DNA from: a virus
IMG/VR virus record: IMGVR_UViG_3300033388_001057
Span: 1-23,630 of that record
Reading direction: 5' to 3' (one strand)
DNA length: 23,630 nt
Part shown: piece after piece, positions 1-5,460 of the stretch
Layout of the letters: each line of letters opens with the position of its first letter
Numbering within the stretch: the stretch's first letter is position 1
Position numbers and translations under genes: made by a program
Notes under the pieces: generated by a model
What the model was told of the DNA's origin: nothing
Seen by the model: only the letters and a program-made list of their open reading frames with translations
Database searches by the model: none

Positions 1-59
1 TCAGCCGTTAAATTACCTACTCTTTGACCTGTTGAAACTACTTTAAATTTAAAACTCAT
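1..59 (-). CDS. Start of a minus-strand gene, truncated by window edge
   Basis: The reverse complement from position 59 opens with ATG and stays open for 19 codons to the edge, reading MSFKFKVVSTGQRVGNLTA. It has the same U-ending codon style as the plus-strand genes, and the A/T-rich stretch before the ATG (60-80) resembles the leaders of other genes here. It points away from the plus-strand cluster at 1194, so this is a divergent arm. Too little is visible to name a function. In crAss-like phages the arm opposite the structural genes often carries replication and transcription genes, but nothing seen here confirms that. Confidence 0.6.
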   Translation of the reverse strand, partial: MSFKFKVVSTGQRVGNLTA

Positions 60-383: not shown

Positions 384-419
384 TAAAAATACCCCCACTA
401 GCTATTACACTAATGAGGG
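384..419 (-). terminator. Rho-independent terminator on minus strand
   Basis: Read on the minus strand, CCCTCATTAG (419-410) pairs with CTAGTGGGGG (401-392) over ten base pairs with two G-U wobbles, around an 8-nt loop. It is followed by TATTTTTA (391-384). It sits about 30 nt downstream of the stop of the 450-581 mini-ORF, where that transcript would end. The U-run is interrupted by one A, so efficiency is uncertain. Confidence 0.65.
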
Positions 420-449
420 CACGAGGATTATCACCTTCTTAACTATATT

Positions 450-581
450 TTAATCACATCCTAAAGCATCTATAAGTCTTATATATGTAGGACATCTTGA
501 ACAATCAGTACTAGGACAATTATCACATATTTCAAATCTAGGTTTTCTAGTCTTTCGTTTATTACTATTAGTATTACTCAT
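450..581 (-). CDS. Cys-rich mini-protein (43 aa), putative zinc-binding
   Basis: ATG at 581-579 opens a 43-codon minus-strand ORF ending in TAA (452-450). Residues 1-15 are Ser/Asn-rich then basic (NKRKTRKPR). Residues 19-30 form CDNCPSTDCSRC, two CxxC knuckles four residues apart, followed by a hydrophobic stretch and a last Cys at 42. This pattern suggests a single zinc site or a small zinc-ribbon-like fold that could contact nucleic acid. Only the motif is seen, and I do not recognise a family. It is supported by the terminator about 30 nt downstream and by phage-like codon choice. In-frame coding-like sequence continues upstream to a TAG at 644-642, so this may be the intact tail of a decayed longer gene rather than an independent gene. 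Confidence 0.5.
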   Translation of the reverse strand: MSNTNSNKRKTRKPRFEICDNCPSTDCSRCPTYIRLIDALGCD

Positions 582-1193: not shown

Positions 1194-1835
1194 ATGGAAG
1201 ATCAAAGTAAAGCTAAAGACACTACTAAAGTTGAAAGAGAGATGTACGGTCATGTGTATGCCGATGATTATGCAATTGCTTGTAATAAATCTCTAACGAA
1301 AGCTGAAGAGATTGGTGCTAAGACTAGTGTGAACTATGTTCCTACTCAAAATGGTGTCCTCATGAGAGCCACTAGTGATATTAAAGAGTCTGCTGTATTA
1401 AATGATGACCCTAAAGAGATTTTTCAACAAGCTGAAGGGTTTGAATTTGTTGTAGTTGCTGTTGGACCTGATGTAAAGAACATTGAACTTGGTGAAGTAA
1501 TTGATGTTAAGTCTATGCAAGGTGTGAGTTTACGTCCGTTTGTACCACATCCTCAGAATGTTACTGTATGGAGAAAGAATCTTAAAGCTGATCCAGAAGC
1601 TATGATACGTCATAATTTACATATAGCTGAAGATGCTGGTAGAGTTGGTTCTGGTGGAGCTGTAAGTAATCTTCAAGTTGTAGGTAACCCTATGGTTGAT
1701 GCTGCTGGAATGCCTCTTAAGAAAGGTGTTGATATTGAGAAGACTATTACTATAGTAGAACATTTTGCTACTGAAGATCATAACGTATCCGCTGTATATG
1801 AAGCCATTGAGTATGTTCGTGAAGTCGGAGAATAA
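1194..1835 (+). CDS. GroES (Cpn10)-like co-chaperonin-like protein
   Basis: The 213-residue protein opens the plus-strand cluster. Residues 53-59 (NGVLMRA) and 86-105 (VVVAVGPDVKNIELGEVIDV) match the GroES beta-barrel signature, in which the family shows a VVAVGPG...V..GD.V pattern. Family members are usually about 95-110 residues; here a 45-residue N-terminal tail and about 95 C-terminal residues are added. Phage GroES-type proteins such as T4 gp31 replace or modify host GroES so that GroEL can fold the major capsid protein, which fits a phage with a capsid gene in the same arm. The extension after residue 115 is unrecognised and may be a separate domain. The start follows an A/T-rich leader with no Shine-Dalgarno. 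Its last codons overlap the next gene by 23 nt in another frame. The fold is a motif-based call; the chaperone role is inferred. Confidence 0.5.
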   Translation: MEDQSKAKDTTKVEREMYGHVYADDYAIACNKSLTKAEEIGAKTSVNYVPTQNGVLMRATSDIKESAVLNDDPKEIFQQAEGFEFVVVAVGPDVKNIELGEVIDVKSMQGVSLRPFVPHPQNVTVWRKNLKADPEAMIRHNLHIAEDAGRVGSGGAVSNLQVVGNPMVDAAGMPLKKGVDIEKTITIVEHFATEDHNVSAVYEAIEYVREVGE

Positions 1836-2998: not shown

Positions 2999-3976
2999 AT
3001 GAACAAGCGTATATTTACTTTTGATGAAGGACAACATATTTATACAGATGATCGTAATTTTGCGTACACTTCTGTAACTACTCTCATACATGAATACGTG
3101 CCTCAGTTCGACTCTCTTAAACACGCTAAACGGTTATCTCGTTCTGGTAAGGGTCACTATGCAGGAAAGTCATATAAGGAGATTTTGGCTATGTGGGAAG
3201 AGGTAACTGATGATGCACTGACTAAAGGAAATAATAGACATAATTTTCTTGAGGATAATGTAAAAGAAGCTACAGGTTTTAGTGAACAATGGAAAACTAT
3301 TAAACGTGCTCCTGGTCAAATGTACACTGTGTCTGATATACTAGAAGATCATAAGTATGGTCTTATGGATTTAGATAAACTAGAACAAACTGTTGGTATT
3401 AGGTATCCTAAGATATGGGAAGCTATTAAGTACTATGTTGATCGTGGGTTTAGAGTATATTCTGAAATAGTTGTTTACGATGAGAAGTATCTAATTAGTG
3501 GTATGATTGATCTACTACTTGTTCATCCTGATCGTAGATTTGTTATTATAGATTGGAAAACTAATAAACATGATATGCTCTTTGAGAGTGGTTATTTTAA
3601 AAGAGATGAACATCAACAGACCACTAGAGAATGGATGAAGAAATCAGAGTATTTTAAAGCTCCTCTAGATGGTCTAGAACATTGTAATGGTAATGTCTAT
3701 TCTATGCAGTTATCTTTATACTCACGACTTGCTGAGAAGTTAGGTCTTAAACTAGAGTATGTTATCATAGCTCATATACGTGAACATTATCAAGCTAATA
3801 AATATGGTATGCCACTTAGGGATGGTAAAGGTAAATATATTACTATTCCAGAACTCGGGGAACGTGTTGATTTTCACGCAATTAACTATTATAAGGGTCA
3901 TGTAGATAATATGATGAATCATTATTTTAATACCACTATGGGTATTTATGGTAATCAACAAAAAATGTTTAAGTGA
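2999..3976 (+). CDS. RecB/Cas4-type PD-(D/E)XK nuclease
   Basis: A 325-residue protein with the full motif series of RecB-like exonucleases in order: KGNNRHNFLE with His81, YSEIVVYDEKY with Glu156, GMIDLLLV with Asp171, FVIIDWKTNK with Asp185 and Lys187, and the C-terminal QLSLY with Gln237 and Tyr241. The Q-x-x-x-Y motif is typical of the AddB/RecB/Cas4 branch rather than of restriction enzymes. Such enzymes cut or resect DNA with metal ions, and phage copies act in recombination, replication or host DNA breakdown. PD-(D/E)XK nucleases are a known part of crAss-like gene sets. No four-Cys iron-sulphur cluster of the Cas4/AddB type is visible. The stop overlaps the next start (TGATG). The residues beyond 265 form a compact tail of unknown role. 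Confidence 0.85.
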   Translation: MNKRIFTFDEGQHIYTDDRNFAYTSVTTLIHEYVPQFDSLKHAKRLSRSGKGHYAGKSYKEILAMWEEVTDDALTKGNNRHNFLEDNVKEATGFSEQWKTIKRAPGQMYTVSDILEDHKYGLMDLDKLEQTVGIRYPKIWEAIKYYVDRGFRVYSEIVVYDEKYLISGMIDLLLVHPDRRFVIIDWKTNKHDMLFESGYFKRDEHQQTTREWMKKSEYFKAPLDGLEHCNGNVYSMQLSLYSRLAEKLGLKLEYVIIAHIREHYQANKYGMPLRDGKGKYITIPELGERVDFHAINYYKGHVDNMMNHYFNTTMGIYGNQQKMFK

Positions 3977-4186: not shown

Positions 4187-4729
4187 ATGAATAAAGCTGT
4201 ATTTGCTGATTTAGATGGTACGTTGATTCGTACTAAGTCTGGGAAGACATTTCCTAAAGATAAAGATGATTGGGTTCTTGACCTGACTGTATTAGATGCT
4301 GTATATAATTATATGTTTAAGAATTTGACAGGTACTCTTTGTATTGTAACCAATCAAGGTGGAGTTGAAGCTGGTTTTATTACTCGTGATGATGTCACTA
4401 TTAAGTTAGCTAACATAAGAGAGGCTATCTTTAAGTACTTCATGGATAAGTATAACTATAATGTAAAGATAGATTCTGCTGCTAGTTATACTAATGATCC
4501 TACTGATTTCATGCGTAAACCTAATCCTGGACTTGGCTATCATCTAGCAATTAATAATAATCTTATCCTTACTCAATCTGTCATGATTGGTGATGCTAGT
4601 GGTAGAGAGGGTGATCACTCTGATTCAGATGAAGGTTTTGCTAGTAATTGTGTAATGAATTACTTTGATGTTGAAACCTTTGTTATGGTATATAGTCCAA
4701 ATGATATTTATAAAAGTCCAATGATATGA
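4187..4729 (+). CDS. PNKP-type polynucleotide 3'-phosphatase (HAD fold)
   Basis: The 180-residue protein has all HAD phosphatase motifs in their PNKP form. Motif I is FADLDGTLI with nucleophile Asp8 and acid Asp10; motif II is VTNQGG with Thr55; motif III is MRKPNPG with Lys111; motif IV is GDASGREGDHSDSD with Asp136 and downstream Asp residues, followed by FASN. The spacing KSGKTFPKDKDDW after motif I is especially PNKP-like. It should remove 3'-phosphate from DNA or RNA ends, making 3'-OH ends for polymerase or ligase. The length covers only the phosphatase domain, and the kinase domain found in T4 or animal PNKP is absent. Its stop overlaps the next start as ATGA. Neighbouring the RecB-like nuclease, it probably serves nucleic-acid end repair. 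Confidence 0.88.
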   Translation: MNKAVFADLDGTLIRTKSGKTFPKDKDDWVLDLTVLDAVYNYMFKNLTGTLCIVTNQGGVEAGFITRDDVTIKLANIREAIFKYFMDKYNYNVKIDSAASYTNDPTDFMRKPNPGLGYHLAINNNLILTQSVMIGDASGREGDHSDSDEGFASNCVMNYFDVETFVMVYSPNDIYKSPMI

Positions 4730-5460
4730 ATAGACTAAATGAGAAAGTAGATGCTAAATACTTACCTAAATTAATGCTTCATTATGGTTTTAGATTATTT
4801 ACAAAAGCTGACAAACGTTTTAATGTTAATATACTTAATATTAGATCGAGAGAAACAAAGGCAGGTAAGTTTGACGACGTACAGGTGGTATTTTGGTTTT
4901 GGGAAGGTAAGCTTGAATGGAAGAAATACGACGTTACTACTGATCCTGGAATACCTTATTTACTTCGGCCTATGCATAGGTATGGTGCTGCTGTAGTAGC
5001 TCCTGGTCAATATACTGATGTTTGGCGATTAGGTAAGCATAGAGGTAAATATGATGCTCTAGTTCAAACTAGTAAGATTAGTGTATTTAGAGATAATGAT
5101 AAAGACAATACTGTAAAAACTAGTACTCTTCATGATGCTAAAGTTAGATCATCTAGAGATATGTTATCTGCTAGTAGGGGATATATGACTTCTAGAGACG
5201 CTAATCATTTTGATAGACATTTAGTTTATCGTGGACTGTTTGGTATTAATTGTCATAGAGCTTCTAAGTATGGACTAGTTGAACGTGTTGGAAAGTATAG
5301 TGCTGGCTGTTGTGTCCACCATGATCCTGAAGGATATAAAGAATTTATTAAGATATGTAAAGAATCTGCTATTAACTTTAGTAATTCTTTTACTGCTACA
5401 TGGATTACTGAGAAAGATTATGATGAATATATAAATACACTTATTAACACTGTAAATTAA
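4726..5460 (+). CDS. YkuD-like L,D-transpeptidase-fold wall enzyme (putative endolysin)
   Basis: The 244-residue protein begins in an ATGA overlap with the phosphatase gene. Residues 173-195 contain GINCHRAS and, 14 residues after His177, YSAGC with Cys195. This matches the H-x14-17-S/T-x-G-C active-site pattern of YkuD-type L,D-transpeptidases, although the usual second His of SHGC is Ala. Just before it is a beta-rich stretch (LGKHRGKYDALVQTSKISV and FRDNDKDN). YkuD enzymes act on peptidoglycan stem peptides through the Cys. There is no signal peptide, as expected for an endolysin released through a holin. Given the putative spanin gene 2 kb downstream in the same run, I infer a lytic peptidoglycan role. 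It could instead be a non-lytic wall-modifying enzyme or an inactive fold relative. Confidence 0.55.
   Translation: MNRLNEKVDAKYLPKLMLHYGFRLFTKADKRFNVNILNIRSRETKAGKFDDVQVVFWFWEGKLEWKKYDVTTDPGIPYLLRPMHRYGAAVVAPGQYTDVWRLGKHRGKYDALVQTSKISVFRDNDKDNTVKTSTLHDAKVRSSRDMLSASRGYMTSRDANHFDRHLVYRGLFGINCHRASKYGLVERVGKYSAGCCVHHDPEGYKEFIKICKESAINFSNSFTATWITEKDYDEYINTLINTVN

Follow-up and report, generated by a model that had tools for sequence, protein, structure and literature searches.

In the archaeon Halobacterium, the small zinc protein Brz is encoded in an intergenic region and regulates a neighbouring gene (PMC2253796). The CPxCG-related small zinc-finger proteins are defined by two pairs that lie 7 to 40 residues apart, at least one of which must be CPxCG-like (PMC2253796). 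The rightward arm of crAss002 and of named genomes related to it opens with hypothetical proteins of small and middle size, after which comes the exonuclease; this arm adjoins a minus-strand arm rich in small hypothetical genes.

In this work we analyzed a window that comprises an entire virus record of 23.6 kb and carries, between its two arms, a minus-strand ORF of 43 residues. The encoded protein resembles the CPxCG-related proteins in being shorter than 100 residues and in having two cysteine pairs (Cys/His in that group), and in both cases the gene lies beside one or more genes that it could control. In contrast, its pairs are only 4 residues apart, neither has the CPxCG, CPxCx or CxxCG form required of that group, and its sequence is unrelated to theirs; given this gap and the lack of a CPxCG-like pair, the protein was not placed in the Brz family.

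The gap between the arms

The terminase, portal, capsid protein and exonuclease of the window match phage families, and the named relatives of the exonuclease are crAss-like phages. A crAss-like exonuclease, the terminase, the portal and the capsid protein follow one another in that order, and the window is a Crassvirales fragment. Its rightward gene order from 1194 is that of crAss002 and the related named genomes. The 43-residue ORF is located inside a 1.1-kb gap (1.19 kb, 1-1193, as shuffled) between divergent arms, in agreement with the arm boundary named in the initial annotation (Table 1). The same annotation had regarded the region as otherwise empty; most of the gap looks non-coding, but a leftward gene starts at 59, at the left end. 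This gene shows a slight resemblance to one gene in the left arm of the nearest relative (7 of 2000 shuffles scored as well), which is only suggestive because the comparison was the best of many.

Table 1. Positions of the ORF, its terminator and the flanking genes in the window
Feature	Position	Strand	Basis
43-residue ORF with CxxC-x4-CxxC and basic N-terminus	450..581	-	translation and chance tests
12-residue Cys4 core CDNCPSTDCSRC, inside the ORF	492..527	-	translation and motif scan
intrinsic terminator hairpin (14 pairs, loop of 6 nt), then T-rich tail TTTTATGCTT	389..422	-	folding and shuffles
start of the next leftward gene, MSFKFKVVSTGQRVGNLTA..., open at the window edge	1..59	-	weakly similar left-arm gene in the nearest relative
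first gene of the rightward arm	1194..1835	+	homologue with 28% identity, likewise placed in the nearest relative
PD-(D/E)XK exonuclease of crAss-like phages, marker of the rightward arm	2999..3976	+	family and relative matches

Other elements were also observed in the gap. Four copies of imperfect repeats of about 26 nt, of the type ATTTTTATCTATATGTAGATGATTAT, occupy 812-1043, ahead of the rightward arm, and could be promoter or origin elements. An inverted repeat, GGGACA...TGTCCC, lies at 334-365, in the stretch that separates the terminator from the leftward gene, and might act as an operator or as a second terminator; a plus-strand terminator-like hairpin is found at 115-138, beside G runs.

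Coding character and probable transcription unit of the ORF

The ORF begins with ATG and its translation, MSNTNSNKRKTRKPRFEICDNCPSTDCSRCPTYIRLIDALGCD, includes the stretch ...EICDNCPSTDCSRCPTY..., in which the cysteines are arranged as C19xxC22-x4-C27xxC30. The two pairs read CDNCP and CSRCP, and a fifth cysteine is present at residue 42. The N-terminal third is basic, with six lysines or arginines within residues 8-15 (KRKTRKPR). The translation therefore agrees with the 43-residue CxxC-x4-CxxC protein and the basic N-terminus proposed earlier; the range 384-581 assigned to it is the ORF plus the terminator and its tail, which ends at 384. An AlphaFold prediction without alignment showed no fold (pLDDT 52).

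Dinucleotide shuffles of 1-1193 gave no ORF of at least 30 residues with two CxxC pairs 1 to 12 residues apart (0/1000), and among 1083 simulated ATG ORFs of at least 40 residues none had a GC3 of 5% or less and none carried a double CxxC. The GC content of the ORF by codon position is 27/52/4.5%, with G or C in only 2 of the 44 third positions (hypergeometric p = 5.4e-6); these chance tests were chosen after the ORF had been seen, so their p-values are generous, and two different features agree. The large genes of the phage have a GC3 of 17-26%, and the ORF deviates in the same direction and more extremely. This is the direction expected for a gene in an AT-rich phage, and the codon-position composition favours a real gene. 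The codon-usage score against the other genes of the phage is weakly positive (0.11 bits per codon vs 0.23-0.78), a weak resemblance of the kind often seen in small orphan genes.

The hairpin downstream begins 27 nt past the stop codon and has a folding energy of -20.7 kcal/mol (z -4.94), with no equally stable structure in 200 shuffles; two terminator-like sites were found in 1-2400, where 0.4 were expected. The ORF thus has a strong intrinsic terminator of its own, as had been claimed. The sequence ahead of the terminator is less structured than its shuffles (z +1.26), a result that argues against a small RNA with a defined structure and fits what is expected of an mRNA, and a search of Rfam gave no match. 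Because the leftward gene at 59 starts beyond this terminator, the ORF would form a separate transcription unit. No clear case of the Bacteroides-type promoter (TTTG/TAnnTTTG) was found on the minus strand ahead of position 581, and a literature search on the promoters of crAss-like early genes gave no usable information. Taken as a whole, these data make it probable that the ORF is a genuine small gene with a transcript of its own.

Search for relatives

ORFs as short as 43 residues are often dropped by gene callers. The searches were carried out at both the protein and the DNA level. A tblastn search of 50,697 phage records with E values up to 10 yielded no frame related to the ORF, the best E value being about 3. 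In IMG/VR, a peptide scan with the 63-codon open frame around the ORF gave no match, and three DNA scans for the cysteine motif gave no homologue; the matches of these motif scans were large proteins, wrong-frame or low-complexity stretches and unrelated tiny frames. Pattern and protein searches of 13 crAss-like records revealed no similar protein. There was no match above cut-off in Pfam or NCBIfam, no significant match in PHROGs and none among PDB sequences. Relatives were also sought with the terminase as bait in genome contigs and viral contigs, and with the first right-arm gene in viral contigs, and none was obtained.

Two weak profile matches were considered. The profile of DUF678 (PF05077) aligned with residues 5-32 (E 0.0017), but its 18.9 bits fall below the 24.1-bit Pfam gathering cut-off, and the score probably reflects the composition of the basic tail plus the cysteines; the protein is not assigned to this family. 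The match to phrog_13558, of unknown function (residues 5-35, E 0.063), is not significant; this profile hits 9 of the 14 ordinary genomes used as controls but none of seven crAss-like relatives. The same 13-residue pattern, CxxCPxxxCxxCP, occurs in larger phage proteins (CDNCPDALCLDCP, CDNCPENGCEDCP; L042, L043, L044 and L079), where the knuckles lie within open frames of about 130-420 residues that have no similarity to the 43-residue protein outside the motif. The shared pattern looks convergent, and a compact metal knuckle arising repeatedly would be the simplest view.

The nearest relative (L003) has a capsid protein 65% identical and an exonuclease 52% identical to those of the window. 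Its corresponding gap is occupied by different small ORFs on the minus strand and lacks a Cys4 protein of this kind, and for this reason the position of the ORF looks like a variable slot. Ten stretches from relatives were inspected for cysteine-rich ORFs close to the boundary, and the spacing and size of those seen differ from those of the 43-residue ORF.

Several other cysteine-rich frames were seen. In L069 (nearest relative), the minus-strand frames 1563-1922 and 4485-4868 encode two related left-arm proteins of 119 and 127 residues with CxxC-x6-CxxC, neither with a family match above cut-off. Another crAss-like relative (L070, 10363-10659) encodes, close to its exonuclease, a 98-residue protein with a SEC-C motif at the C-terminus (E 5e-10) and additional CxxC pairs. 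Two viral contigs (L080, 3481-3518, minus strand; L081, 5487-5524) hold near-identical frames of 20-26 residues, MIICxDCPLCDCESCPVERL, with the same cysteine-proline pattern as the 43-residue ORF.

Possible roles of the product

In a phage protein this small, four clustered cysteines would most likely bind zinc, and a basic tail would point to nucleic acid or a polymerase as partner. The zinc-regulator or host-takeover role put forward in the initial annotation is conjectural. We favour, with moderate confidence, the reading that the ORF is a small accessory gene of a crAss-like phage, located in a variable slot and transcribed leftward as its own unit, with a transcript that would end at the terminator just past its stop codon. 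The four cysteines would hold one metal ion, predicted to be zinc, around which the product would fold; the basic N-terminal tail may touch nucleic acid or a component of the polymerase or the ribosome, and for this reason the predicted role leans to that of a small regulator. The ORF with its motif, the double CxxC that shuffles and simulations lack, the low GC3 next to a high GC2, the strong nearby terminator and the unstructured stretch ahead of it argue for this reading. Comparison with other genomes is consistent with it, given the small minus-strand genes beside the same right-arm order in named Crassvirales and the different small minus-strand ORFs in the gap of the nearest relative, and Brz may serve as a precedent by analogy (PMC2253796). 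Against it count the lack of a homologue in the collections searched, a codon usage only weakly like that of the phage, the lack of a clear promoter, the low pLDDT, the fifth cysteine and the loop of 4 between the knuckles. Such a loop is shorter than in most zinc ribbons.

It is possible, though we consider it less than probable, that the gene is real and its product is something other than a regulator: it might serve in anti-defence or another accessory function, form a dimer bridged by metal, or act as a redox peptide. A variable gene in an accessory slot would suit this, and four clustered cysteines plus a fifth fit such uses equally well; nothing specific counts against it, though the basic N-terminus leans to nucleic acid. 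That the frame arose by chance, inside an operator region or a short non-coding RNA with a terminator, is unlikely: the absence of homologues and the non-coding appearance of the rest of the gap agree with it, and the terminator could end an RNA, whereas GC3 and the double CxxC were unmatched in simulations, no stable fold precedes the terminator, and Rfam gave no match. An iron protein of the 4Fe-4S or rubredoxin type is very improbable, since, despite four cysteines of which the last is followed by proline (CxxCP) as in ferredoxins, the spacing C-x2-C-x4-C-x2-C departs from the ferredoxin C-x2-C-x2-C-x3-C-P (the pattern C-x2-C-x2-C-x3-C-[PEG] is absent from the protein) and no Pfam or NCBIfam family matched above cut-off.

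The favoured reading, that of an accessory gene for a small regulator, has a far-reaching form that we regard as distinctly doubtful, in which the ORF would represent a new zinc-protein family of very small size, encoded as an independent unit between divergent crAss-like arms, whose members switch or block transcription by the host or phage polymerase at the boundary. At present the protein is best read as an orphan accessory protein, perhaps a zinc-binding regulator, and is one more small cysteine-rich phage ORFan; being a single orphan with no relatives found, it so far raises no broader question. If the ORF is expressed, the gap between crAss-like arms would carry separate small transcription units.
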